IMG/VR virus record: IMGVR_UViG_3300033149_006603
Location: 1-34,254 of that record
DNA length: 34,254 nucleotides
Source of the DNA: a virus
Direction: 5' to 3' (one strand)
The notes beneath the pieces are model-generated. The model was given only the letters and a program-made list of their open reading frames with translations. It did no database searches and was not told where the DNA came from. Shown piece after piece: positions 3,823 to 21,846 of this stretch (positions are counted from its first letter, which is position 1; each line of letters opens with the position of its first letter). The position numbers and the translations under genes were made by a program.

Positions 3823-4190
3823 CTCAGTTTTAATTACTCAGTTTTAAATATAATCAGTTTAATTAACTATTACCCTCAGTTTTAAATACAGATCTTAACT
3901 TCAATATATAATATATATATTAACATCAGGTCTATATTAACTTCAACTTATGTTAACTTCAGATCAGTTTTATCTTCAGAGATCAAGATCAGTTAATATT
4001 AACTTCAATATTAACTTAATACTGATATTAACCTCGAAACAGATATTAACCTCGAAACAGATTATACAGATCCATAAATATTAAATTATTTCAATAGCAT
4101 TGAAACAGAAGTTAATAGTTAATACTGAAGTTAATATTTAATACTGATATGAAACTCTTAAAACTCATGGTAATTAACTTCAGAAGTTAA
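3823..4190. repeat. AT-rich repeat array: candidate origin iterons or operator array
   Basis: TTAACTTC occurs at 3895, 3937, 3953, 3999 and 4174; its complement GAAGTTAA occurs at 4108, 4127 and 4183; near-copies are TTAACATC (3920), TTAACTTA (4011) and TTAACCTC (4028, 4046). That is about twelve sites in 300 bp on both strands. A second word, CTCAGTTTTAA, occurs at 3823, 3837 and 3875, with a variant at 4223. There is no gene between 3560 and 4310. The array lies between two outward promoters (3586-3615 minus, 4256-4284 plus). Dense short repeats in AT-rich DNA are typical of replication origins (iterons) or of a multi-site repressor region. Confidence 0.75.
4024..4059. repeat. 18-bp perfect tandem repeat (two units)
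   Basis: GATATTAACCTCGAAACA occurs twice in tandem with no mismatch (4024-4041, 4042-4059). Each unit contains a TTAACCTC variant of the array word, so it is part of the larger repeat region. Confidence 0.85.
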
Positions 4191-4310: not shown

Positions 4311-5177
4311 ATGAGCGACGACGAAAAGAAATTATCTCTGGAAGAAATAAAGGCTCGGAGAAAGAGAAGTCAGAAGAATAAATCGATGGCACTGGCTAGA
4401 AAATTTGAAGGGGAATTACGAATTTCCGAAGAAGACGATGGAGATAAAAATCTCTTTACGAGAGAACAACTTATTGAAGCTTTGGTATATGACCCGGAAA
4501 ACATATCTGATACAAAAACGTATACAGAAGAAGAGCTTGAATATGTAAAAAAGAGCATGAAAAAATTGCTCCTTGGATCGGGCTCCTCGATAATCATGAA
4601 GTGCCCCGGAAAAGAAGAGTGTCCTTACGGGGAAGAATGTCCTTTTGCGCGGATTGGGAAGGAACCGATGGGGAAATCTTGTCTTCTGGAAACTATGTAT
4701 TTTAACGAGCTTTTGATTCAAACGGTGAATTCTTTTGACGTAGATGCGACAAATGTGGCAGAGATGGCATTTTGTAATGAATTGGTTGAGTCGAAAATAC
4801 TTCAGATGAGGGCAAATAGGGCACTGGGAAAACCAGAGAATGTTGACCTTGTCGTGATGCAGGAAAGCTTTAGTAAAAGTGGAGATTTAATACAGAATCC
4901 AGTAGTTTCTCCTCATTTGGACGCTCGGGATAAAATTGTAAGAAGAATAGAGAGAATAATTAAGCTTATGGTTGGCGATAGGCAGGAAAAATACAAGCGG
5001 GCGGCTGCGTTGAAAAAGCGCGATGAAACAGATGAGTCGACAGATCAGGCGAAAAAAGCCCGGATGATCATGGAAGCTAAGATGAAAAAAGAGGTTAAAG
5101 AGCTGGAATCTGCGGAAGAAGAGGAAGAAGTATTAACCCCTGATGATATTCTAAGTCAAGTTGAGGATCCAGAATAG
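4311..5177 (+). CDS. Cys-cluster protein, candidate terminase small subunit
   Basis: 288 aa, ATG with AGGAGGAG about 10 bases upstream, first gene after the promoter. The N-terminal third is highly charged. A cluster C98-x5-C104-x5-C110-x13-C124 (KCPGKEECPYGEECPF) probably binds metal. A helical region follows (AEMAFCNELVESKILQMRANRAL), then NPVVSPHLDARDKIVRRIERIIKLM, which recalls the C-terminal part of P27-type small terminases (NP...A...i.r...lmG...R). The C-terminus is charged coiled coil ending in an acidic tail. Position upstream of the large terminase, though separated from it by four genes, supports a DNA-packaging role, but this is inference. Confidence 0.5.
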   Translation: MSDDEKKLSLEEIKARRKRSQKNKSMALARKFEGELRISEEDDGDKNLFTREQLIEALVYDPENISDTKTYTEEELEYVKKSMKKLLLGSGSSIIMKCPGKEECPYGEECPFARIGKEPMGKSCLLETMYFNELLIQTVNSFDVDATNVAEMAFCNELVESKILQMRANRALGKPENVDLVVMQESFSKSGDLIQNPVVSPHLDARDKIVRRIERIIKLMVGDRQEKYKRAAALKKRDETDESTDQAKKARMIMEAKMKKEVKELESAEEEEEVLTPDDILSQVEDPE

Positions 5178-8100
5178 TTGTTCTCGTTTCTACCTAAGAA
5201 TACATTATTTTTCGACATAGAAACCGGGGGCATAGAATCAAAAGAATCTTCTGTATTTTCCCTTACCTACGGACAACGGGGAAGAAGATTAAGAACCAGC
5301 TATGCCTCTCCCGCCAAAGGTTCATTTGTTTCCAGGTGGGCCGAAGATATAGTTTTATCGAAAATCCAAGGAAAAAAGACAGTTAGCGAGCAGAGGCTCC
5401 TAGAAGCCTTTCTTAAAAAACTAGAAAAGAGAAGGGCAGGATCTACTTTAGCTGGTTGGAATATAGGCTATAAAGCTATTCCTCAGGCGAGTTGGATTGC
5501 TGGATTTGATATTCCTTTTCTTGTAAGTCGGGCCGGAAAATATGGATTACAAGGAAGATATCAACAGGCCTTTGGCCGCTTAACTACGAGAGATATAGGG
5601 CAGGAATTTCTGGCGAGTACAGCTTCAAGAATTTACGGTTTTGCCAAGAATTTACCTCAAGAGCGTTTATTTCAAATATTTGATCCTGATATTTATCGAC
5701 AACTAGAACCTTATGGAAGAGAGGCCTTCGCCTTACGTCAGAGAGGTTTGGGCGTACCTGAGATAGCCCGAAAATTACAGGGATATAGAGTCGCAGGGTG
5801 GAAACAGGATCTGGCCTACGAGTTGATGACTGGGAAGCCCCTAACTTCTGCTCATATGTCTGAGGCTGATGTTCAGGCTATGATAGAGATGTCTGGGAAA
5901 ACGTTGAATATTTCAGATGAACAGTTTGCCAGAAAGTGGCATTCGTTAGCGCTGAAAGGTAGGCTAGTAAGCTCGGCTAAGGCTCAAGTGAGAAGAGGGA
6001 AAGAGATAGGCTGGGAGGCGCTAGAAGCCAGGGCAACGAGATACGGACTAGATTGGAGTTCCATTAGGAGCACAATAGAGTCTGAGAGAAAATATTTTTC
6101 TGGATCTGGTCGCATTTGGGAGCGAGAAGTAGCGGAAGAAGCAGTTGTTAGGGCTAGATCAATTTTTGCTGGACGAAAGGGATTGCTTATTGGGGGAGCG
6201 GTTGCGGCAGGAGCAGCTCTTTTGTATGCCGTTAAGCCCCTTAGATGGCTGAATGACAGGGATGAGCAGCTAGAGGCCGTTAAAAGAGGTGAGTTAGCCG
6301 AGGTTAAAATTTATGGGGCAGATGATGCCTACAATGAAATAAAAGGTATGCCTGAGCAGGGAATAGGTCCTGTTTTAAGGCATGCCATGACTCCATTTGG
6401 GTCTGGATATCAAGGAGAAAGAGAAAAAGACGCTTTCGATTATTCTTCTTCGATTATCCCAGGTCTTTTTTCAGCAGGTGTCGGAGGATTTCTAGCTTTT
6501 GGACGTCGCGAGGGAACTTGGCTGAATGTGCCTGTTGATCCGGCAGAATATGCAGAATCTTTTACAAAATTCAAATATCGTCCCGGCGACATCATTGTTT
6601 CTCGTAATGTTCTTTACGACGCCCCCTTCCATGTGGCAATCGTGGGTCCCGATAAAAGCGTATACCAAGCGTGGCCCGGGGCGGGGGGAAAAGCCGTTGT
6701 ACAGCGAGAAAGTATAAGCTCTTATGTTAGGGGTCAGATAAAAATACATGCTGCCGAAAAAATGGAGTACCCTCTTTTCGGTGTAGTGCGCCCCTCCGCT
6801 TTATCAGAAAGCAAACGTCTAGAAGTGGCCAGAAATGCAGCCGGGATATATGGCGACTTTATTTGGGGAACAATTAGGCCAAGATATGGGCTGCTTGCGA
6901 ACCAGGGTGTAAATGAGTTTAACTGTTTAAGCTATGTATCGGAAGCTTATAGTAGAGCTGGGGCGGAGTTCTTCAAGCCAGAGGTCAAGAGGGCTTTTCC
7001 GTGGAATGTTAGCGAAAAAGGCTGGGAATGGATGTTGAAAAGTCCGAGAAAAATCGGAGAGAAGCGTCTTCTTCCCAAATATGCGGCAGGGCTTGGACTC
7101 GTTAGTGCGGGGATTGGGGCAGCAACTGGCGACCCGCTTTTGGCTGGTTATGGCGTTGGAATGGTTGGGCTTTCGCTTGGGAGCAGGGCATTTTTAGAGA
7201 GTTCCCTTGCCAAGCGTCTTGGCTTGGTAGGTTTGGTTTTACCCGGTAAAACCAGAGCGCTCTTTATGAAGTCTCTCGCGTTTGCCGGTTATACAGCCAT
7301 GGCGCTTCCTGCCGTTTTAAGAGGGGCAAGCGACTTAAGCGATTTTGATGCATCAAGCTTGTTGAATGTGGCGGCAGCGGGCAGTAGTTTATATTTCGGG
7401 AAAACCGTATACGATACGATATTTAAGAATGTTCCCAAGTATGATCCTAAATCCAAGCGTTTGCTAATTCTCGCGGATGTGGCGGCTGGCGGAGCAATGG
7501 GACATACAATGCCAGCGGAGGCTATTAGAGATTGGGTTCAGAAACATGGCTGGGACGCTGATGTTGTTGGTGGTTTTGAGAACTTAAGTGGTCTAAAACA
7601 TTCTGGTGTTGGATACCGTGCGTTCGTAGATGCCGGATATAATACTCAATGGATATCTGGGCTTCCGGGTGTAGCGGTACAGTGGGACGTGCAGGGGAAA
7701 AATCTTTCTAGTCAGGCGAAATTCAGGTCTATTTTAACTAAGAATTTTGGTCTTAGTTCTGAGGGTATGGCTTTTGTCGTGCCTTCTGTAGAGCAGGCGG
7801 CAGATTATGCTTCGGTAACTGGTCAGAAGAACTTTTATTCATTCAATACCCTGGTTATCAAGCCGAAAACTTTTGAGAAAATACAGGCTATAAAAAGAAC
7901 GTTGGCAGCTGGACAGCTAAAGCTTCCCGGAATTTCGTCTGGAGAGAGGTTTGTAACTATTTCGGGCGGCGGGAAAGGCTTCGGGGTAGCTGAAGCCGCT
8001 AGGGTTTTGCAAGAAAGCGGATGGCTAAAAGAAACCAATAGAAAGGCTGTTATTTTTGCCGCCAATTTGAATACGCAAAGACCTAAGGCCTATAGAAGTC

Positions 8101-10181
8101 TAATGGAATTGGTGGAGAAGGATCCTTCGAGATTTATTGTTCACGATTTTGCTCCCGGAGGGGCTGGTAGAAGACTTACGGAGTATATGGCGGCAGCTGA
8201 TATAAATTTATTGGCCGGAGGAGCTTCCACTACGGTAGAAGCAACAGTCGCTGAGAAGCCGTTTCTTGCCTTTCGTGGAGCTGGAGTTCCAAAGTGGGAG
8301 CATTTTATCGGAAATCCAGAGTATGCCAGAGAGAAATGGGGGGCGTCGGTAAGGCTATATGAATTGCCTGGATTAGGAGAAGAAGCTGCCGAGAAGGTAA
8401 CTGAGCTAAGAGGGGCTTTGACTTTTCTCGAAAAACAGGGGGCGGTCAAGAGTGCAGTTCCTCGTATGTCAGAGTTTGACGCAGGTAAGAGAATAATAGA
8501 CATAATCGAAGAGGCGGAGAAAGCGGGGCAACTAAGGCCAGCGAAATTTAGGCCTACTCTCCAGGGGATGGTTTATCCTCTTTGGAAAAATCCTGGGGTG
8601 CGGCGAGCTGGATTGGCGACTCTCGGTATTTTTGCATTATTGGGGGTAAGTGGTCTGATTTCGGATGACGAAGAGGAAGTTTCCGATAGATTGGCAAAGG
8701 GGAACTATCAGGACCATAATACGATTCCTGGAATGCCGGAGGAGGGTATGAACGCCCAAATGCGGCATGAAATGACAGAGTTTGGTAGCGGCTGGCTAGG
8801 GAAGTTATTTAGGAGATTTGGCCGTAAAGCGTTGCCGGAAGCAGCAAGTACGGGTTGGCGATTATCTGCTCAACAAATGCGAGAAATGTCTGCCGTAGAA
8901 TTTAAAAGATTTGTATCTTCTCGTGCTAAATCCTCAAAATCATTACAAATTATAGGAGCGATGTCGAAGGAGAGTGGCGGTAATTGGGCGTTAAACGCTC
9001 GTCAACTTCAATCCCTTTCTACGGAAGAATTGATAAGAGAGATTAAGTCTCAAGGTGGCGAAGCAATAGGATTGCTTAAAGGAGCTTTTAAAGAAGCGGG
9101 GACGCAGGTTGGAAGAATTAGGGCAAATAAGGCTCTGAACCCGATTGAAGGATTAGGGTGCAGCGGGAAGGGTATTTTTACCGACTTCGGCTCTCCTTGG
9201 AAAGGCCCAGTTGTTTCAGGTCCTTTGGCGAAAAAGGTAGCCCTAAATGATCCGAGGATGTTCAATACTGTAGAGGGCTTGGTGCATGGGGGAATGAATG
9301 AGCGGAAGCGTCATGAAATGACTCCGTTTGGGGGGCCGTTTAATTGGGCTAAGGGATTGTTCAGGAAGACTTTTCCCGGTCAGAAGAATGCCTCTAAGAT
9401 ATTAAGCGAGATGAGCAAGAAAGAGAGTGTCATTGTTTTTCCAGAGAGATTAATGGGATATTTACCGAAAGAAATGAGGAAGGAGTATTCTGGGTTAGTC
9501 GGGGGATATCTTCCTTTGGCAGGAACACAGGCCACTAGGGCTAGGGGGGAAATGGCTTTCGAGGACATATTTAAGGTATTGAGGGCTCAGACTAGAGGGG
9601 ATGAAGCTGGACGAGAGCTGGCGAAGGAGTTTTATTCAGAAGCTGCTAAAAAAACAGGGCCTGGAGGGGGGATTCTTGTTTCCGAAAGAGGGTTTAAGAG
9701 AATGGCTCGTAAGGCGGGTGGAACGGATGTTATTTCAGAAACGATAGCTCACGAAAGAACTCATATGGGGTTAAGGGTTAAGGGGCTCCTAGAAGACGTA
9801 GAGGAAATATTTGATATGGCAGGGGCTTCTGGTGGGTACAAGAAATGGTTGAATAAGTATAAAAAACATGCCTATTATTCAAAAGAGCCAGGTCGGTTGG
9901 CGGAGGAATATGTAGCGCATGCGGCGGGAGCGGCTAAGAGGGGGATGACTAAGGCTGAAAAAGAAATGTATGCTCCTGCGATTGCTTATCTTAAAGGTAC
10001 TCCAGAGTTATCAGAATTTGCCGGATTGCAATTCCATAATAGAATGGGAGACATGACTAGGGCAGCTCAGCAGCAAGCGGTCTTAAATGCTAAGAACGGC
10101 GCCAAGAATCACATAAAACATACGAGCTCTTTAACAAATGCTGAAAGAGGATATAATAATGCCGGAAGGATTTGGGAGTAG
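5178..10181 (+). CDS. Giant polyvalent protein: DEDDh exonuclease, permuted papain-like peptidase, MurG-like glycosyltransferase, gluzincin-like metallopeptidase
   Basis: 1667 aa, TTG start directly after the upstream TAG, with GAGG inside the previous gene. Residues 1-260: DnaQ/RNase T-like DEDDh fold with D13 and E15 (FFDIETGG), D111 (GFDIPFL), H226 and D231 (SAHMSEADV). About 460-600: circularly permuted NlpC/P60 or C92-type peptidase, with PGDIIVSR and H485 (HVAIVG) before C583 (NCLSYVSEAY). About 758-1075: GT28/MurG-like, with GGAMGHTMPA at 771-780, ISGGGKGFG and the NLLAGGASTTVEA donor-site signature. About 1500-1600: HERTH (1525-1529) with possible third ligand E1576 or E1577 in AEEYVAH. 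Hydrophobic helices lie near 336-352, 633-665 and 1144-1160. Four FGS-type repeats occur at about 389-412, 1184-1207, 1322-1342 and 1365-1388. This resembles polyvalent proteins delivered with phage DNA; virion packaging is inference. Confidence 0.85.
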   Translation: MFSFLPKNTLFFDIETGGIESKESSVFSLTYGQRGRRLRTSYASPAKGSFVSRWAEDIVLSKIQGKKTVSEQRLLEAFLKKLEKRRAGSTLAGWNIGYKAIPQASWIAGFDIPFLVSRAGKYGLQGRYQQAFGRLTTRDIGQEFLASTASRIYGFAKNLPQERLFQIFDPDIYRQLEPYGREAFALRQRGLGVPEIARKLQGYRVAGWKQDLAYELMTGKPLTSAHMSEADVQAMIEMSGKTLNISDEQFARKWHSLALKGRLVSSAKAQVRRGKEIGWEALEARATRYGLDWSSIRSTIESERKYFSGSGRIWEREVAEEAVVRARSIFAGRKGLLIGGAVAAGAALLYAVKPLRWLNDRDEQLEAVKRGELAEVKIYGADDAYNEIKGMPEQGIGPVLRHAMTPFGSGYQGEREKDAFDYSSSIIPGLFSAGVGGFLAFGRREGTWLNVPVDPAEYAESFTKFKYRPGDIIVSRNVLYDAPFHVAIVGPDKSVYQAWPGAGGKAVVQRESISSYVRGQIKIHAAEKMEYPLFGVVRPSALSESKRLEVARNAAGIYGDFIWGTIRPRYGLLANQGVNEFNCLSYVSEAYSRAGAEFFKPEVKRAFPWNVSEKGWEWMLKSPRKIGEKRLLPKYAAGLGLVSAGIGAATGDPLLAGYGVGMVGLSLGSRAFLESSLAKRLGLVGLVLPGKTRALFMKSLAFAGYTAMALPAVLRGASDLSDFDASSLLNVAAAGSSLYFGKTVYDTIFKNVPKYDPKSKRLLILADVAAGGAMGHTMPAEAIRDWVQKHGWDADVVGGFENLSGLKHSGVGYRAFVDAGYNTQWISGLPGVAVQWDVQGKNLSSQAKFRSILTKNFGLSSEGMAFVVPSVEQAADYASVTGQKNFYSFNTLVIKPKTFEKIQAIKRTLAAGQLKLPGISSGERFVTISGGGKGFGVAEAARVLQESGWLKETNRKAVIFAANLNTQRPKAYRSLMELVEKDPSRFIVHDFAPGGAGRRLTEYMAAADINLLAGGASTTVEATVAEKPFLAFRGAGVPKWEHFIGNPEYAREKWGASVRLYELPGLGEEAAEKVTELRGALTFLEKQGAVKSAVPRMSEFDAGKRIIDIIEEAEKAGQLRPAKFRPTLQGMVYPLWKNPGVRRAGLATLGIFALLGVSGLISDDEEEVSDRLAKGNYQDHNTIPGMPEEGMNAQMRHEMTEFGSGWLGKLFRRFGRKALPEAASTGWRLSAQQMREMSAVEFKRFVSSRAKSSKSLQIIGAMSKESGGNWALNARQLQSLSTEELIREIKSQGGEAIGLLKGAFKEAGTQVGRIRANKALNPIEGLGCSGKGIFTDFGSPWKGPVVSGPLAKKVALNDPRMFNTVEGLVHGGMNERKRHEMTPFGGPFNWAKGLFRKTFPGQKNASKILSEMSKKESVIVFPERLMGYLPKEMRKEYSGLVGGYLPLAGTQATRARGEMAFEDIFKVLRAQTRGDEAGRELAKEFYSEAAKKTGPGGGILVSERGFKRMARKAGGTDVISETIAHERTHMGLRVKGLLEDVEEIFDMAGASGGYKKWLNKYKKHAYYSKEPGRLAEEYVAHAAGAAKRGMTKAEKEMYAPAIAYLKGTPELSEFAGLQFHNRMGDMTRAAQQQAVLNAKNGAKNHIKHTSSLTNAERGYNNAGRIWE

Positions 10182-10183
10182 GG

Positions 10184-10840
10184 ATGTTTGATAAGTTACT
10201 CGCAGGTACTCTAAAAACTGGTTTTCGGGGACTGAAGGCTGTTCATTGGGGGTTGCGAGGTAGTCTTGTTCGCAGGATGGCTACTACAAGTTTGCTTGGA
10301 GGTTTGGGAGCGGCGACAATAGGCGCTCCAGGCAGTTCCTTGGAAACCCGATTTGGTGCGTTTGTTGGTGGAGCTACCTTGGGAGCTTTGGCGGGAGCGG
10401 CCTCTTTTTTGCCATTGCGAAAAATGGCTTGGGGGGCGACAAAGAGTGGTATTTCGACAGGAATGTACGCTACTGGAAGTTTGGCAAAAAGTGCTTATGG
10501 TTTAGCTCGGAGGCACCCGGGACCTTTGCTTCTTGGTGCCGGAGCTTATGGGTTATATAGTTTCGCGAGTCCTTTTGTTGGAGGTTTATCCGGAGGAGAT
10601 AGGTTGGATTTGATGGCCTCCTATGATCCAGAGACTTTGCAGAGAGAGGCGCAGGGAATCATACAGACCGGCGGTGGCCAATGGGCAGGTCAGTCTTTTA
10701 GTGAAATGTCGGGATATGTGCCGGTGGGGGCTGGAGTAATTCGAGGTGGCCCTCAATATGTTGCTCCCTCTATGACTGATTCTTTTACGCAAAGTACTTA
10801 TGGCTTAGTTCAAGGGCTGCATAAGGGGGCGATGTCTTAA
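10184..10840 (+). CDS. Gly/Ala-rich hydrophobic protein (218 aa)
   Basis: Start taken as ATG 10184 (MFDKLLAGTL), with GGGAG 5 bases upstream, rather than the in-frame TTG at 10172 inside the previous gene. Hydrophobic, glycine-zipper-like helices at about 37-75 and 107-133 (LLGGLGAATIGAPG, FVGGATLGALAGAASFLPL, LLLGAGAYGLYSFASPFVGG), with a soluble C-terminal tail. No family recognised. Shares its style with the next two genes and with the hydrophobic parts of the 1667-aa protein; its stop shares an A with the next ATG. Candidate internal virion or membrane-inserting protein used during genome delivery, by context only. Confidence 0.65.
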   Translation: MFDKLLAGTLKTGFRGLKAVHWGLRGSLVRRMATTSLLGGLGAATIGAPGSSLETRFGAFVGGATLGALAGAASFLPLRKMAWGATKSGISTGMYATGSLAKSAYGLARRHPGPLLLGAGAYGLYSFASPFVGGLSGGDRLDLMASYDPETLQREAQGIIQTGGGQWAGQSFSEMSGYVPVGAGVIRGGPQYVAPSMTDSFTQSTYGLVQGLHKGAMS

Positions 10841-11520
10841 TGGCGTTAAGTTCTATGGCATATCGGGCAGGTTTTGGTGAGGAATCGGGCGCTTTTTCTG
10901 ATGTGGGCATGAGCTTCGGTGTGGGAGCATTAACTGAGGCTATTGGGTTTGGTAGAGGAAGAGAGATAATAGAGCTTTCCAAGGGAGGTGTTTTCGGAGG
11001 TGGGTGGAAAAATCGTTTTCTATTAGGAGCTAAGCAAGGTTCTCTCGAAGCGGTTGGACTGGAGATGAAGGGAATAAAAAGTGTGTTTGGAGAGAGTGCT
11101 CTTGGGAGGTGGGGAGGAAGGCTTTTCATGGGGGGCTTTACTGCTTACTCTATGTACGAGGGATATCAACAGGGAGGCATTCTAGGGGCCATAAAGGGCG
11201 GGATCCGAGAAGTTGCTGTATTTGGGGCTATGCGTGTGGTTGGAGAAGTTGCTGGGGCGAGTATATTGGGGGGCTTGAGTGTTCCCGTTGCTGTTGGTGC
11301 TGCTGCTGGTTATGGAGCCTACAAGGCTTTAGAATACGGGCAGTCTCGGACTCGGGCGTTAAGAGAGACGGAGTTTGTGACTCCTGTGGTGGATCCGTAT
11401 GGGACAGGATATACGATGAGACAAAGAAGCCTAGCTTCGATTCAGAAAAGTTATTTAAATGGAAGAATGGCCATGGGGAACGAGGCCGTACTCTTGGGGG
11501 CCGGTAGAGGTCTAAGGTAG
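10840..11520 (+). CDS. Gly/Ala-rich hydrophobic protein (226 aa)
   Basis: ATG overlaps the TAA of the previous gene by one base, indicating translational coupling. The N-terminus, MALSSMAYRAGFGEESGAFS, is followed by several small-residue hydrophobic helices, the strongest at about 125-165 (EVAVFGAMRVVGEVAGASIL, then GGLSVPVAVGAAAGYGAYKA). The C-terminus is polar, with a PYGTGYTMRQRSL segment. Glycine-zipper helices like these pack in membranes or in channel-forming internal virion proteins. No enzymatic motif and no recognised family. Member of the three-gene set 10184-12104. Confidence 0.65.
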   Translation: MALSSMAYRAGFGEESGAFSDVGMSFGVGALTEAIGFGRGREIIELSKGGVFGGGWKNRFLLGAKQGSLEAVGLEMKGIKSVFGESALGRWGGRLFMGGFTAYSMYEGYQQGGILGAIKGGIREVAVFGAMRVVGEVAGASILGGLSVPVAVGAAAGYGAYKALEYGQSRTRALRETEFVTPVVDPYGTGYTMRQRSLASIQKSYLNGRMAMGNEAVLLGAGRGLR

Positions 11521-11537: not shown

Positions 11538-12104
11538 ATGGTAACTCCGAGCTTTTTAGGAGAAATAGGAAAATCGTTATTTAAACAATCGATACCTTTA
11601 CTTGGGAAATCGCTATTTATCATGGGGAGGGTAGGAGGCGAGCTTGCCCTGAGAAATCCTACTGTTGGAATGGGAAAATATATGGTTGGAGGTGCTGTAG
11701 CGGGTGGTATTTACGGAGCTTTTAGTGATGACACAAGTGTACTGGGAGGGGCTATTTTAGGCTCTGTGATAGGTTCTGGGTTGATGCATGGTAGAATGGC
11801 TGGGGGCGCGGCTTTGAGGGCAGCTAGCAAGGGAACTGGTCTTCGAGGTTTTGGACGAGAGTATCTTTCTGGTTATTATAAAACTCAAGGTCGATTTGTG
11901 AGGCAGGCCGCTAGGTCTGCGCGAAATATTGGAGGTTTACTAAGTTCTCATTTACCTTTTAATCCCATAAAGGGGCTTTCAAGTTCTTCTGATAGATGGA
12001 TTAGGGCGGCGACTTCTTATGGGCGTCGTTCCTGGGGGGCTGGACATGCGATTTCTGGGGGAGCTTCAATTTTTGAAACTCTTAAAAATCTTTATAGCTT
12101 CTGA
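11538..12104 (+). CDS. Gly/Ala-rich hydrophobic protein (188 aa)
   Basis: ATG with AGGAGG about 9 bases upstream. The hydrophobic core at about 47-92 (MVGGAVAGGIYGAF, VLGGAILGSVIGSGLMHGRM) has glycine-zipper spacing; the rest is basic and Ser/Arg-rich (RFVRQAARSARNIGGLL, SYGRRSWGAGH). Third of a set of small hydrophobic proteins between the polyvalent protein and the terminase. The basic tail could contact DNA or lipid head groups. No family recognised; a role in the virion or in genome entry is inference from the neighbourhood. Confidence 0.65.
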   Translation: MVTPSFLGEIGKSLFKQSIPLLGKSLFIMGRVGGELALRNPTVGMGKYMVGGAVAGGIYGAFSDDTSVLGGAILGSVIGSGLMHGRMAGGAALRAASKGTGLRGFGREYLSGYYKTQGRFVRQAARSARNIGGLLSSHLPFNPIKGLSSSSDRWIRAATSYGRRSWGAGHAISGGASIFETLKNLYSF

Positions 12105-12115
12105 GAAGAGTCCGA

Positions 12116-15100
12116 ATGATTAATCTCAAAAAGTGTTCTTCTACGTGCTTGGAATGTATTAAGCAATATAAAGAAAAGCATAAAGTAGATTTTAAAGAAA
12201 GCAATGAGCGACCTCATTTTGCGATTGACTGCGGTGGTATCCCCAAAGAGTACCTAACGGAAGAAGAGGCGGCGGGATTTTCGGATCTAGAATACAGAGA
12301 AGTTCTTTCGTACTTAGATCCTGTTACTTGGGCCGCAGAAAATTTAGATTGGCATTGTTTAGATCCTGATGGGGAGATTTGGAAAAGAAAGAATCCCCAG
12401 GAGTATTTGAATTGGCGGAAGAAAAATCCTGGAGTAGATATTCTGGGTCACTCTCGATATCATCGACCATATCAGGCTCTGATATTGCGTTGTCGGGCCA
12501 GGCATAAGGTGATGCGCGTCGGACGTCAGGCCGGAAAATCTGAAGCCATTGTGGTCGCAATGCTTTATCATATGTTCGTAAAGCCTGGTGTTCCGGAAAA
12601 TGAGGGATTTATTATTGTTCTTGTTACTCCTTATCAGACTCAGATTGAGCTCATTTTTAAGAGAATAACCGAGTTGCTTCAGTCTAGTGTTAAGCTTCAG
12701 AATTCTATTCATAGAAGCGTGAAAGCTCCTCAGTATCAGTTGGAGCTGCACAATAATAGTCGTATTGCTGGATTTACTGCAGGTTCGAAGTCTAGTGGCG
12801 GAGCGACAAGCGTTCGTGGGCAGCACGCAAATATGCTTTGTTTAGATGAAGGATCTCTTGTCAATACGGGTGAATTTTCATTAAAGCCGATAGAAAAGCT
12901 TACCCTACAGGACACTGTTTTGGGAGCGGATTTCGATAGAATAGAAGTCGGGGAAATAATTGCAAATTTCAAGAGAGAGGCTGAGGTCATTAGGATATCT
13001 ACTCCGTTGACGACTCTTCGATGCACTCCGGACCATCCTATTTTTAACGGGAGAGAAGATGTTCCTGCCGAAAGAGCTCGGGAGGCTATTGTAGATCTTT
13101 CTTATCGGAATTTGTCCTTTAAGCAAGAGGCCATTATTGCTCGATTGGCAGGCTATAATTTTGGGGACGGGTGGATAACTGAAAATCTCAAAGAAGCTGG
13201 TTTTTCTGGAGACGAGAAGGATTTGCAGCAAATACTCCAGGACATTGTCGTATTAGGTGGGGAGCCGAGTGTAGGAAAGAATCGGTTTTCTATTAACAAG
13301 GAGCTTGGCATCGAGGGGATGGTGGCACAAATCGGCAGTAGATATGCGGTTAGATTGCTTAAGGATATATGCCCTAGGGGGAGAAAGGTGCATCAACAGC
13401 TTGCCGTGCCTTTGTCTGTCATGAATGGTTCGGCTATCGCGAAGAAGAATTTTCTTTCTGGATTATATAGCGCAGGAGGAACGGAATTGCGATACAAAAA
13501 GAACGGCACTACTCCTTGTGCGTTAGAGATAAGGATGAATTCTTCTAAAAAAGAGTTTATCGAAAAATGGATTTTCCAAATTGTAAAATTGCTAGAAAGT
13601 GTGGGCGTTAGAGTTTCAAAAGTTAAGATAAAGAAGGAAAAGGGGACGATCAATAAGGCCCAGGAGGATAGGTGGGTTGGTTTGATCAGGATGGCTAATT
13701 CAAGAAAGAATTTACTTCGTTTTATAGATGCTGTTGGAGCTTGTTATTCGATGGCCAAACAGCGAGCTTTTAACGCACACAGGCTTTACTGTTGGTACGA
13801 TTCTGTATACAAAGAGAGGGTATGGAAGAAAAACCGCAGGATTAGGGCTCTTGGATACTTGAAGAATAAGGAAACATCTTCTGCCTTGGGTATTCCACTT
13901 AGTACTGTGAAATTTCATAAAAAAAAATATCACCCGTTATTTTCAGAAAATAAGTTGGACGTCTCGGGTCTTATAGACAAGTTGTCGATAATTTCAGATG
14001 GATATGTTTTGCTTCCTATTTTGGATAAGCATCTGAAACGGAGAACTCTATCTACTGTTTACAATTTAACGTCTACGGCCTTTCATAGGTATTTTGGAAA
14101 CGGAATGTTAACTCACAACTGTTTGGATGAGGCTGACTATCTAAATTCCGATGACATGGACGCTGTTATGTCAGTTGTTACGAATTATCCCGAGGCGCTT
14201 GTTTGGATGTCTTCTACGCCTAGCGGAAAAAGAGATAAGTTTTTTAGTGTATGTCATGATATGGGCTGGAAAGAGTTCCATTTCCCTTCTTACGCAAATC
14301 CTTTGTGGAATGAGCGAATAGAGGCAAATTTTAGAAGCATTTTGACCAAGATTGCTTGGGAACACGAGATAGAGGCGAATTTTTCAGAACAAGAGCTTGG
14401 TGTTTTTCAGAATGCATATGTTGACGCGGCTAAGGATGTTCATGAGTATGAAGCGATGGTCCCCCAAAGGGGTTGGGCGTATATGATGGGGGTTGATTGG
14501 AATGATCCTGCTAATGGGACTACTATTTCAGTTGTAGGGTTTAATCCAGCGAATAACAACTATTATAAAGTGGCCAGAGAAATAGTTCAAAAAGCGGGAT
14601 GGACTCAGTTGGCGGCTTGTCAAAAAATAGCAGAATTGAATAGGCTTTGGCGGCCCGATAGGATTTACATAGATAAGGGGCATGGTTCAACTCAAGGAGA
14701 GATTTTGCGCAAATGGGGGTTTGAAGCTCTTACTGATCCGAGTCGCGGGAGGGGGCATCCGGATACAAAATTAAAAGATCTGGTTGTTTATGATTTTGGC
14801 TCTAATGTTGAGGTAAGAGATCCTTGGACTCAAAAAAAAGAAAAGAAGTATGCCAAGGCCTTCTTGGTCGAGAATGCAGTAAGATTTTTCGAAAGTCAGA
14901 TAATTCACTATCCCGCCTCCGACAAGGATTTTGCCAAACAGCTTAATGGCTATATTATCAAAAGGATAGGTGAGTCTGGTAAGCCGACTTACGAGGCAGG
15001 GCCTGCTGGAGATCATATGCTTGACGCATTCATGCTGGCCTTGGTTGCCTTTGCTCTGGAAACCTCTTCTTTGGGAAAGCCTAAATTTGATATGTCTATT

Positions 15101-15415
15101 TCTTTTGCGCCGCCGCTTAATTCTTTTCCAGAAGAGGGCGAGGGGAAGATTAAGGAGCTTGCCGAGGGGGTATACCATAAAGAAGGCCCCAAAGAGAAAC
15201 GAACAACTAGACCGTCGATGAAGCGTACGGGCTTTTTGGATGAAACTCCTGCCCTAATTACCAGAGGAAATGCACCCGCAGCCCACACGACCCTAGAGGC
15301 CAGAAAAAACACCATTTTTTGGGGAGAGGGAAAAAATCATTTGTCAAAAGATTCTGAAAATGGTATTATACGTAGAGGTTTAAGAACTAGACGTCCTCGG
15401 AGGAAAAATATCTGA
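12116..15415 (+). CDS. Terminase large subunit precursor with intein
   Basis: 1099-aa precursor; about 672 aa after removal of the intein (residues 242-668). ATPase half: Walker A GRQAGKS at 136-142, and Walker B LCLDEAD, which is only complete after splicing joins L241 to C669. Nuclease half: GVDWNDPANGT, RIYIDKGHG and GDHMLDAFMLAL, the acidic residues of an RNase H-fold terminase nuclease. Extra features: an N-terminal Cys cluster (C7, C11, C14, with C39) and a basic C-terminal tail of about 70 residues after the nuclease. The ATG has only a weak purine-rich site. The protein translocates DNA into the prohead and cuts it. The next gene starts in its stop codon. Confidence 0.95.
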   Translation: MINLKKCSSTCLECIKQYKEKHKVDFKESNERPHFAIDCGGIPKEYLTEEEAAGFSDLEYREVLSYLDPVTWAAENLDWHCLDPDGEIWKRKNPQEYLNWRKKNPGVDILGHSRYHRPYQALILRCRARHKVMRVGRQAGKSEAIVVAMLYHMFVKPGVPENEGFIIVLVTPYQTQIELIFKRITELLQSSVKLQNSIHRSVKAPQYQLELHNNSRIAGFTAGSKSSGGATSVRGQHANMLCLDEGSLVNTGEFSLKPIEKLTLQDTVLGADFDRIEVGEIIANFKREAEVIRISTPLTTLRCTPDHPIFNGREDVPAERAREAIVDLSYRNLSFKQEAIIARLAGYNFGDGWITENLKEAGFSGDEKDLQQILQDIVVLGGEPSVGKNRFSINKELGIEGMVAQIGSRYAVRLLKDICPRGRKVHQQLAVPLSVMNGSAIAKKNFLSGLYSAGGTELRYKKNGTTPCALEIRMNSSKKEFIEKWIFQIVKLLESVGVRVSKVKIKKEKGTINKAQEDRWVGLIRMANSRKNLLRFIDAVGACYSMAKQRAFNAHRLYCWYDSVYKERVWKKNRRIRALGYLKNKETSSALGIPLSTVKFHKKKYHPLFSENKLDVSGLIDKLSIISDGYVLLPILDKHLKRRTLSTVYNLTSTAFHRYFGNGMLTHNCLDEADYLNSDDMDAVMSVVTNYPEALVWMSSTPSGKRDKFFSVCHDMGWKEFHFPSYANPLWNERIEANFRSILTKIAWEHEIEANFSEQELGVFQNAYVDAAKDVHEYEAMVPQRGWAYMMGVDWNDPANGTTISVVGFNPANNNYYKVAREIVQKAGWTQLAACQKIAELNRLWRPDRIYIDKGHGSTQGEILRKWGFEALTDPSRGRGHPDTKLKDLVVYDFGSNVEVRDPWTQKKEKKYAKAFLVENAVRFFESQIIHYPASDKDFAKQLNGYIIKRIGESGKPTYEAGPAGDHMLDAFMLALVAFALETSSLGKPKFDMSISFAPPLNSFPEEGEGKIKELAEGVYHKEGPKEKRTTRPSMKRTGFLDETPALITRGNAPAAHTTLEARKNTIFWGEGKNHLSKDSENGIIRRGLRTRRPRRKNI
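12839..14119 (+). other. Intein with degenerate LAGLIDADG homing endonuclease
   Basis: 427-aa in-frame insertion. It begins with Cys1 (CLDEGSLVNTG, residue 242), carries the block-B signature T304-P-D-H307, and ends with the block-G motif GMLTHN (N668) followed by Cys+1 (C669). The endonuclease core has LAGYNFGDG (344-352, catalytic-position D351) and a second motif LSGLYSAGG (447-455), where the catalytic acid is replaced by Gly454. A helix-turn-helix-like stretch (TSSALGIPLSTVKFHKKKYH) precedes the C-terminal splicing block. Splicing residues look intact, so protein splicing is expected; homing activity is doubtful. Confidence 0.93.
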
Positions 15416-18750: not shown

Positions 18751-19652
18751 ATCCTTGTCGACTAAATCGATGGGCCAGTTAGCACACCAGGCCCAGTATA
18801 GAGCTAGAGCAATTATCTCAGCTCAAAAAGCTTCTGCTCGAGCAACAGGAAACAAGGTTAACGTCCCTGTGGTTGAGCGAATAGGATGTCCAGCCATACT
18901 GAAGGCCAATAAAGAAGCTGCGTTTGACTACTGGCTTTCGGTTCAAAATCAATTCGGAGGAAAGCGAATTAAATTACCTTGCCGTTCACATCGAAAGCTC
19001 AATAAAGCGCTTCGAGATGGCTGGACACTTAAATCAAATGCTGAGTTTATTCTAGATAACAAGAATAGACCGGTTGCTCGTGTTTACGTAGAAAAAGAAG
19101 TCCAAAAGGCTACTCCTAAATCAGAATCACTAGGCTGCGACGTTAATTACAAAAATTCAGTAGTTCGCAGCGATGCTTGCATTGGATTCAATGCCTCGAA
19201 GTTAATCAAGAAAGCTAGAGGCAAACGGTCCCAGCGTCAACGACAAGGTTTGAGAAGTAAATCAGTGAAGACTAATTTAAAACAGCGACTAGATATTGAA
19301 GCTAAGTTAGCAATTGGACGTTCCAAGCGCACTAAGCGGAATCTAGTCGTTGAAAACCCGAAGGTTCTGAGCTCCCTGGGTAGGGGTAAACTACAAGGTT
19401 GGGCTCAGTCCTACTTCGCCAATAGGTGTCAGGTACTAGCTCAGGAGGAGGAAGTGTTCATCTGGAGTATTAATCCAGCCTACACTTCTCAGACTTGCGC
19501 CAAGTGTGGTCATCTAGACAAACGGAGTCGGCGAGGTTCTCGTTTCACTTGCACTGCGTGTGGACACGGCCGAGAACATTGCCGCGAAGGGTACGTCGAG
19601 TCTCACTAGCGTGCTGGCGAGACGATCAGGAGACGTTAGCCGTGGGAAATAA
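18727..19652 (+). pseudogene. tnpB: Decayed tnpB (IS200/IS605 OrfB-like RNA-guided nuclease)
   Basis: Starts MKANRAYK, then shifts frame and stops; roughly the first 60-100 residues of a normal TnpB are missing. The main ORF (18755-19609, TTG) keeps RuvC-I Asp (GCDV, D129), RuvC-II Glu (VVENPK, E200) and the zinc ribbon C248/C251 and C266/C269. After CGH the frame changes: the other frame reads AENIAAKGTSSL to a TAA at 19650, matching the usual C-terminal NAA.NI..RG signature, while the segment that would carry the RuvC-III Asp is absent. This points to a small deletion. TnpB is a guide-RNA-directed DNA nuclease of transposons; this copy should be inactive. No tnpA is present. Confidence 0.85.
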
Positions 19653-21846
19653 TTCAGAAAACGGCACCTGTATACGAGTTGATTCTGAAGTCGGAAAAAG
19701 CGAACGAGTCAAGGTTTTTAAGTTAGATATACCTGCGAAAGCTGGGCCTCTTAGGGATCCGACATATCTTTATTCCTCTCTATATGGCTCTGGAGGCCGC
19801 TCTCAGTTTCTTCCGGCTGAATATGATCTCGCCGAGATCGGCAAGGCCGAGGATTGTGAAAGTTATGTTACTCAAGCTTTTGTAAAAAGAATTGGTTTAA
19901 TGTTTAAGGAAGGGTATGCTTTTGTTGGCCCTAATCCTAAGACTGTTGAATATGTGAGGGCCCGTTTTAGGCAAATAGCTCAAGTTTCTGATACATCCAC
20001 AGAAGATCTTATTAAGCGCATCGGAACAGAACTCGTCAAAAAATCTAATGCTTTTGTGGTGAAGGTTCGTAATCGTAGGGCGTCTGGGGGCAAGCCCAGA
20101 AAGGCTTTTGGGAGCAAAAAGAGCTTGGAGCCAATCGCTGCGTATTTTATCGCTCCTGCCGAAACGATGTCTTTTAAAACCGACAAAGATTGTCGACAAG
20201 TTGTCCGATGGAAGCATTCCATAGAAGGATTCGCGGGAGGAAGTTCGAAGGAATTTCCGGTTGAAGATGTAGCGCATCTGCATTTTAATCGCAAAGAGGG
20301 GTTTGTCTTTGGGACCCCGACTCTTATTCCCGTACTGGACGATATTAGGGCTCTCAGGAAGATCGAAGAGAATGTAGAGCTTTTGATATATCAGCATCTG
20401 TTTCCTCTATTCCACTATAAGGTTGGAACCGACGAGATGCCTGCCACTTATACAGAAGATGGATATAGAGAGATTGACGTTGCGAGAGCTTCTATACAGA
20501 ATTTGCCCGCTGAGGGCGGAATAGTTACCTCCCATAGGCATGATATAAAACTTCTAGGGACGGAAGGTCGGACCCTGCGAGCTAGAGAGTATCTTGAATA
20601 CTTTAAGCGGAGAGTATTCGCTGGCCTGTCAATGTCGGCGGTTGATTTCGGCGAGCCAGGAGCCGCGAATAGGTCCACTTCTGATACCATGTCTAGAAAT
20701 CTCATTGACTCCGTAAAAGATTACCAAAAAGCATTTGAGACGTTTTTTAATAATGAGATAATTCGAGAGCTACTCCTAGAGGCCGATTTTTCAGGGATAG
20801 ACCCCCTTGGCAAAGAGAATTTGGTTGAGCTAAAATTTAACGAGATAGATTTTGATGCGAAAGTTAAACGTGAAAGTCATTATGCTGATATGTTTTTGAA
20901 AAATGCCATTTCTCATGATGAAATGCGAATCGGTATAGGAAAAGATCCATTTGATATTCCGACCGTAGAGGAACAGAGGGCGGGTCGTCCAGAAGAAGAT
21001 AGGTTTAGAGAATGGTACCGGACTTCCTGGAAGCTATTCGAGGAGCCTAAGGCCCTGATACAGGCCGTGGATGAACCTTATTCAGCTGCAGCTCAAGCGG
21101 CAGTAGAGAGCCCTTCTCTGGAAGTTAATCAGGGAGAGCTAGAGCAAAGCCAGAAGATGAAGGAGGAGGTAGAACGAAAAAAGTCTACTGCAGTCAGCAA
21201 GGACATGAGAGATTTTGCGCAGTCTTCTTGGAAACCCAGGGTTAGTATTATTAGGGAGCAATTTGATAAAATAGAGAGTTGGGTTAAGGACGTAGTTGTT
21301 GGCGGAGAAAGAGATGAAGGTTGGATCGCTGCTCAAATAAGATTTCTTTTTGAAGATTCCAAAAGAACTCTTATTTCTAGTATGGTTGCGCAATTTTCAA
21401 AAGGTTATTTTGAAACCACTCCTAACGTAGAGAAGTATTCTCAGAGTTTGGCTAGGAATCGTTCTCGTTTGGAAAGTCGAGCGAATGGATATGTTTATCG
21501 ACTCGAAGAGGATGTCGGGCGATTGATAGTTAATAAGCTGGGTGTTTTGTTTAAGCTTGATACGTCACTAGAAGAATTGAAAAAAACTGTTAAAATTATA
21601 TTCGATTCACTTCGCTTCAGGGCGAATTGTATTGATGATGCAGAATTGGGAAAGGCCTTTATTTTGGGTCAAGCTTATGCTCTCATGGATGAAGGGGTAG
21701 AAGAAGTAGAGATAGTTGTGAACGAGGGAGCCTGCGATAAGTGTCTAGCCAGAAAGGGAGAGAGAGTCCTTTTGGAGACCTTTAATGTTGATCGACTGCC
21801 CGTTTATCATCCGTTTTGCAGGTGTACGATAAGAACGGTGAGTTAA
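19642..21846 (+). CDS. Portal protein with MuF-like C-terminal domain
   Basis: 734 aa from GTG 19642, chosen for AGGAG 9 bases upstream; the open frame extends further left only through tnpB sequence. The first about 500 residues have the portal pattern: TQAFVKRIGLMFKEGYAFVG, a long helical stem, LRAREYLEYFKRRVFAGLSM and RSTSDTMSRNLIDSVKDYQK. A charged linker (about 450-545) leads to a C-terminal domain ending in ACDKCLARKGERVLLETF and LPVYHPFCRCTIRTVS, the CxxC...G...HPxCRC signature of MuF/SPP1 gp7-type minor head proteins. The portal forms the dodecameric head vertex. Its start lies inside the tnpB tail, so the N-terminus may have changed. Confidence 0.88.
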   Translation: MGNNSENGTCIRVDSEVGKSERVKVFKLDIPAKAGPLRDPTYLYSSLYGSGGRSQFLPAEYDLAEIGKAEDCESYVTQAFVKRIGLMFKEGYAFVGPNPKTVEYVRARFRQIAQVSDTSTEDLIKRIGTELVKKSNAFVVKVRNRRASGGKPRKAFGSKKSLEPIAAYFIAPAETMSFKTDKDCRQVVRWKHSIEGFAGGSSKEFPVEDVAHLHFNRKEGFVFGTPTLIPVLDDIRALRKIEENVELLIYQHLFPLFHYKVGTDEMPATYTEDGYREIDVARASIQNLPAEGGIVTSHRHDIKLLGTEGRTLRAREYLEYFKRRVFAGLSMSAVDFGEPGAANRSTSDTMSRNLIDSVKDYQKAFETFFNNEIIRELLLEADFSGIDPLGKENLVELKFNEIDFDAKVKRESHYADMFLKNAISHDEMRIGIGKDPFDIPTVEEQRAGRPEEDRFREWYRTSWKLFEEPKALIQAVDEPYSAAAQAAVESPSLEVNQGELEQSQKMKEEVERKKSTAVSKDMRDFAQSSWKPRVSIIREQFDKIESWVKDVVVGGERDEGWIAAQIRFLFEDSKRTLISSMVAQFSKGYFETTPNVEKYSQSLARNRSRLESRANGYVYRLEEDVGRLIVNKLGVLFKLDTSLEELKKTVKIIFDSLRFRANCIDDAELGKAFILGQAYALMDEGVEEVEIVVNEGACDKCLARKGERVLLETFNVDRLPVYHPFCRCTIRTVS

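Follow-up and report, generated by a model that had tools for sequence, protein, structure and literature searches.

The 34,254-base window, which is the entire IMG/VR record IMGVR_UViG_3300033149_006603, codes for a 1667-aa modular protein that is probably a polyvalent-type effector of a large tailed phage, with modules exchanged at linkers and delivered with the DNA. It belongs to a family of 44 distinct viral proteins defined by a dedicated linker of about 38 residues; the syntenic members occupy one fixed locus by the large terminase subunit (TerL) gene, and the content and order of modules differ from member to member. The preliminary description proposed a multidomain protein of the polyvalent type, an idea strengthened by the other enzyme modules of these 44 linker-bearing proteins. 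The residues and motifs on which it was based are all in place, including D13, E15, D111, H226, D231, H485, C583, and HERTH at 1525-1529, as well as GGAMGH at 771, GGGKGFG at 930, and GGASTT at 1014.

The gene and its neighborhood

The gene (ORF 5178-10181, + strand) reads through 1667 codons in one frame without an internal stop; its TTG start codon immediately follows the stop codon of the gene before it. Codon-position GC is uneven over the whole length, and both GC content and codon-position bias are continuous along it. The whole protein has no match in Pfam, PHROGs, NCBIfam, PDB sequences, or the named phages, and a search of IMG/VR with single-sequence patterns gave none either.

The gene lies between that of a conserved Cys-rich protein (288 aa; 4311-5177, +) and those of three Gly-rich hydrophobic proteins of 222 aa (10172-10840, +), 226 aa (10840-11520, +), and 188 aa (11538-12104, +), each in the same slot in relatives. 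These are followed by the TerL gene (12116-15415, +; phrog_2, E=3.9e-27) and, farther downstream on the same strand, by genes for the portal, a protease-like protein, and the major capsid protein. The portal and TerL are distant kin of those of Bacillus phage KLEB27-3, Acinetobacter phage ME3, and Moorella phage MTATph1.

There are several other features of note in the window. A LAGLIDADG intein (LAGLIDADG_3, E=0.0013) splits the TerL ORF, the TerL ORFs of several relatives are similarly long, and the portal ORF of one relative (L018, 1617-4838, -) also seems to bear an intein. An ORF with a TnpB/Cas12f-like TNB domain (18755-19609, +; E=1.3e-8) sits between the genes for an 853-aa protein and the portal, and overlaps the listed portal start; the C terminus encoded by the portal ORF (19495-21846, +) matches minor head protein families (phrog_115). 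Divergent from the late genes is an ORF for a ClpP-like protease with an N-terminal hydrophobic segment (1439-2113, -), and short AT-rich direct repeats (3824-4147) occur where the coding strand changes, ahead of the late genes.

A dedicated linker and a fixed locus

The first relatives were reached via the capsid protein, on two contigs. There the product of the syntenic gene, 823 aa long, shares the N-terminal domain of the 1667-aa protein, carries a short repeat twice, and is kinase-like at its C terminus. An alignment of the 288-aa Cys-rich neighbor, used as bait, yielded 22 loci, about 19 of them distinct, and these are organized in a common order: the Cys-rich protein, a giant protein, usually three Gly-rich hydrophobic proteins, and the terminase. 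The giant proteins vary from 339 to 1784 aa at these bait-anchored loci and from 339 to 2418 aa among the relatives overall, with the same layout. Among the named phages, the cultured Bacillus phage KLEB27-3 resembles these loci in its flanking genes and codes for a 257-aa protein in the giant-protein slot; in Moorella phage MTATph1, up to the record end, TerL is not directly preceded by a comparable large protein.

The short repeat is a linker of 39 columns (about 38 residues) with the consensus xFSGKDDxYNTIEGLxHxGxAxxxRxxxTDFGSG (also written SGKDDxYNTIEGLxHGGxAxxxRxxxTDFGSGW). Its hidden Markov model (HMM) matches every syntenic giant protein, and a scan of IMG/VR finds the linker in the 44 distinct proteins at one to six copies each. 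The 1667-aa protein contains three good copies, at aa 378-414 (6309-6419, +; domain E 1e-15), aa 1176-1208 (8703-8801, +; domain E 1e-14), and aa 1356-1392 (9243-9353, +; domain E 3e-18, this copy being one of the HMM's own seeds), and one degenerate copy with TDFGSPWKG at aa 1333-1343 (9174-9206, +; domain E 0.003). It is the product of the only linker-bearing ORF in the record, and the linker is likewise confined to one ORF in each of 11 records of 66 to 204 kb. Searches with a single pattern, which divergent copies could escape, found no linker in 84,980 bacterial and archaeal species genomes, and a single consensus, with the same limit, found none in 50,697 named-phage records.

When the 44 proteins are split at their linkers and the pieces are clustered, 24 module types turn out to be common to at least two proteins, in varying combinations and order. 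The commonest is kinase-like (21 proteins) and is often last; the DEDDh exonuclease module is present in 19 and is nearly always first, and a module class containing SNase is found in 17. Pfam matches among the relatives include SNase (4e-16 to 6e-11), APH/kinase (3.6e-9), DnaJ (9e-4; L024, aa 475-513), R2K ATP-grasp (2e-3; L038, aa 464-623), and RNase_H_2. A stretch at about aa 480-560 of L023 resembles a caspase-like peptidase by eye.

The constant parts

The N-terminal module (aa 1-320; 5178-6137, +) is a DEDDh (DnaQ/TREX-like) exonuclease, an assignment well supported at the level of sequence and agreeing with the preliminary description. It is related by blastp to other members, with E values down to 4e-51, and in an alignment of 12 relatives D13, E15, D111, and D231 are invariant and H226 nearly so. 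The profile of this alignment matches PDB chains labeled exodeoxyribonuclease III (E=1.2e-6), with the ExoI D-x-E, ExoII D, and ExoIII H-x4-D motifs in register and both motif blocks, H-x4-D included, aligned in the PDB match. In L043 (6324-9881), the exonuclease module is without catalytic residues and has other modules alongside in the same protein; with these residues lost there, exonuclease activity is not always needed.

Hydrophobic segments form a second recurring part. In the 1667-aa protein a probable transmembrane helix predicted from hydropathy (aa 334-355; 6177-6242, +) lies ahead of the first linker, and further hydrophobic helices are at aa 424-442 and at aa 1143-1164 (8604-8669, +); there is also a Gly/Ala-rich hydrophobic stretch at aa 640-757 (7095-7448, +). 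Many members have a Gly/Ala-rich hydrophobic segment before the first linker, which exceeds an 18-residue mean of 1.3 in 19 of the 44, and windows above this value account for less than 3% of any family member. At the other end, the protein has a basic tail of the family type (A..NG..NHxxxT; 10053-10181, +); when the 44 C termini are compared by eye, a basic GG..HT-type tail is common to many of them.

Variable modules of the 1667-aa protein

The most C-terminal module (aa 1480-1620; 9615-10037, +) is a putative zincin metallopeptidase, which is supported by motif and alignment and in keeping with what was first described. HERTH (1525-1529) and the downstream EE (1576-1577) correspond to HExxH and EExxA motifs that are invariant over four divergent relatives, among few other invariant columns. 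An HExxH motif is expected 0.02 times by chance in this protein, and the module matches L037 by blastp at E=0.001. A small module at aa 1209-1332 (8802-9173, +), between the second linker and the degenerate one, matches no other module.

A segment at aa 758-1140 (7449-8597, +) is predicted to be a GT28-type (GT-B) glycosyltransferase, which is supported by profile comparison. Against an alignment of Escherichia coli MurG with 29 to 30 homologues, fetched by PF04101 in one bacterial phylum, hhalign reports a probability of 85% (P=7.6e-7) over 304 columns, and the alignment is in register from the Gly-rich N-terminal loop through the ADxxxxxGAxT..E motif. A pre-built profile scores 41.1 (P=6e-5), and the best scores of 583 decoys are 27.6 (300 shuffles), 27.4 (133 module fragments), and 22.0 (150 unrelated ORFs). 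The similarity to MurG and other GT28 enzymes such as UgtP and MGDG synthase includes this collinearity, the GG..GH..PA and GGxxGx loops, and the ADxxxxxGAxTxxE motif.

The MurG-like designation first given to this segment was too specific. Pfam Glyco_tran_28_C (PF04101) matches aa 999-1030 below threshold (E=0.0048; 11.4 bits, cut-off 22), the MurG family model (TIGR01133) does not match the 1667-aa protein at E<=10, and PF03033 (GT28 N-terminal) and PF13528 (Glyco_trans_1_3) have no match in the window; because of these results, the module is better named GT28-like than MurG. The GGGKGFG loop is presumably closer to those of lipid glucosyltransferases than to that of MurG.

The segment at aa 456-625 (6543-7052, +) was described as a permuted papain-like peptidase, and its motifs bear this out in part: H485 precedes C583 (NCxxxV), and both this motif and PGD...HVAIV resemble those of LRAT/PLAAT proteins and YiiX (C92). 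Profile comparison does not extend the likeness, since hhalign against C92 and a two-sequence LRAT set does no better than shuffles, and PF05708 (C92) has no match in the window. A single-sequence AF2 model (pLDDT 42) has LRAT/PLAAT proteins (TIG3, HRASLS3/LRAT, AdPLA, PLAAT3) as its top VIA rows, with Z scores of 4.4 to 5.5, and the aligned ranges of most of these rows stop short of the Cys. A permuted papain-like fold is somewhat favored. The permuted papain-like superfamily includes lipid acyltransferases and phospholipases, so peptidase activity should not be assumed; should the fold hold, lipid acyl chemistry of the LRAT/PLAAT type would be equally likely.

Structure prediction, which had been put forward as a check on these segments, gave low-confidence models of both. 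The single-sequence AF2 model of the glycosyltransferase segment (pLDDT 44) is confident only in part of the second half, and its VIA rows place a GT-B fold (VldE, Z 5.0) level with unrelated Rossmann-like folds; Foldseek with either model returned no match at E<=0.001. Neither segment has relatives in phages, plasmids, or IMG/VR, and by these searches the two modules are private to the 1667-aa member. Plasmid matches to a fimbrial usher (E=0.6) are attributable to chance.

Comparison with known systems

In phages and conjugative elements, polyvalent proteins combine disparate enzyme domains, such as metallopeptidases, kinases, GNATs, and nucleases, in one very large chain, the metallopeptidase being the commonest; those of phages are encoded among late genes, and it is proposed that they are packaged and then injected (Iyer et al. 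2017, PMC5512222). The 1667-aa protein resembles them in having exonuclease, GT28-like, and metallopeptidase segments within one ORF and in being encoded upstream of TerL, with the portal and capsid genes farther downstream. It differs in its single conserved linker, its fixed locus by TerL, and a DEDDh exonuclease that is usually first in the family. No Pfam match to the LPD, ArdC-N, DdrB-ParB, PBECR, or other signature domains was found in the window protein or the scanned relatives; such domains are not required of each polyvalent member. The text of PMC5512222 contains neither "glycosyltransferase" nor "papain," and no description of a linker-defined, one-locus family, or of a GT28-like module in it, was found in the openly licensed papers searched. 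The polyvalent class is already known; what appears to be new is a family with a GT28 module that is defined by its linker and fixed in its locus.

Acinetobacter phage ME3 codes for a protein, ME3_11 (L021 5895-7484), at the corresponding position, ahead of a hydrophobic protein and TerL. Like the family members, it has a DEDDh-like N terminus and a C-terminal hydrophobic helix followed by KP, but it is 529 aa long and has neither a linker nor effector modules. Its exonuclease match is weak (RNase_H_2, E=0.027; family profile, E=0.009, first-ranked among the ORFs of four named-phage stretches). Annotated as hypothetical, ME3_11 is likely a DEDDh exonuclease on these matches and is a possible minimal cultured relative.

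Phage MuF-fusion effectors and polymorphic toxins also join a constant part to exchangeable effector modules. In contrast, the modules of the window family are internal, with several in each chain and repeated linkers between them, and a MuF domain was not found in the 1667-aa protein.

Proposed role and alternatives

In the polyvalent-type effector reading, the protein would probably be made late, with the head genes. Its constant part would be the N-terminal DEDDh exonuclease, the hydrophobic helix, and the basic C-terminal tail, with variable enzyme modules threaded on the dedicated 38-residue linker; modules would be gained, lost, and reordered at the linkers as the locus stays put. The chain would most likely be built into the head during assembly and then enter the cell with the DNA, where its modules may act on host components and its nucleases on nucleic acids. 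We infer delivery with the DNA because nucleases, kinases, and a glycosyltransferase encoded among head genes make most sense in the next cell, and because the same context is described for phage polyvalent proteins (PMC5512222). Modules may be released when the metallopeptidase cleaves the chain at the linkers or close by, in line with the proposal made for polyvalent proteins (PMC5512222). The GT28-like transferase and the possible LRAT/papain-like acyl- or peptide-cleaving enzyme are predicted to sit between hydrophobic helices, and because of this flanking they may act at the membrane. Against the effector reading stand the absence of Pfam matches to polyvalent signature domains, the degenerate exonuclease of L043, and the low confidence of the two private-module models.

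A more specific form of this reading is possible, if on the doubtful side: the linker would be a standard module-exchange joint, the fixed late locus an effector assembly line, and the chain delivered with the genome, with a membrane-directed GT28 enzyme acting on entry to modify a lipid or precursor of the host envelope. The envelope precursors invoked in the preliminary description belong here, and lipid II or another envelope component would be a candidate target.

The syntenic position beside TerL would also suit a protein that helps to package DNA or assemble the head. The main rival, which we consider rather unlikely, is that the protein is an intracellular factor of this kind, its modules being accessory cargo in the producing cell and never ejected. 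The exonuclease and hydrophobic part would then help concatemer processing or packaging anchorage. TerL is close by in the anchored loci, and ME3_11, an exonuclease-plus-helix protein without modules in the same slot, would fit an ancestral role of this type; the host-modifying modules (kinases, SNase, glycosyltransferase, and ATP-grasp) differ widely between phages, however, which argues against it.

A lower probability still attaches to a polyprotein, in which the linkers would be prohead protease sites, the constant tail would target the prohead, and the chain would be cut into internal proteins. This would account for linkers placed between modules and for the conserved IEG tripeptide inside them, and there is precedent in giant phages such as SPN3US, which process and eject head proteins (PMC5694885, PMC10052503). 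However, the conserved stretch of about 38 residues is far longer than a protease site. Moreover, sites of the prohead protease are as a rule found in several head proteins, and the presence of the linker in one ORF per record, and in no other protein of the 11 large phage records, disfavors reading it as a general prohead protease site.

Finally, separate genes could have been joined by the assembly, a possibility named at the outset as one that would refute the observation, or fused by accident. This could be suspected from papain-like and glycosyltransferase segments without relatives in the collections searched and from finding no independent contig that covers ORF 5178-10181. It is highly improbable given that the private segment has family linkers at either end, that the slot, the N-terminal module, and the C-terminal tail are those of the family, that GC and codon-position bias are continuous, and that relatives of 339 to 2418 aa share the layout.

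The polyvalent-protein idea gains a clean syntenic test family, with one locus, one linker, and 44 distinct proteins, to which the cultured phage ME3 may add a minimal relative. The linker provides a simple sequence handle for more such proteins and their modules. If the assignment is true, the presence of a GT28-type module in a protein of this sort would add a new type of activity to those of phage effectors.
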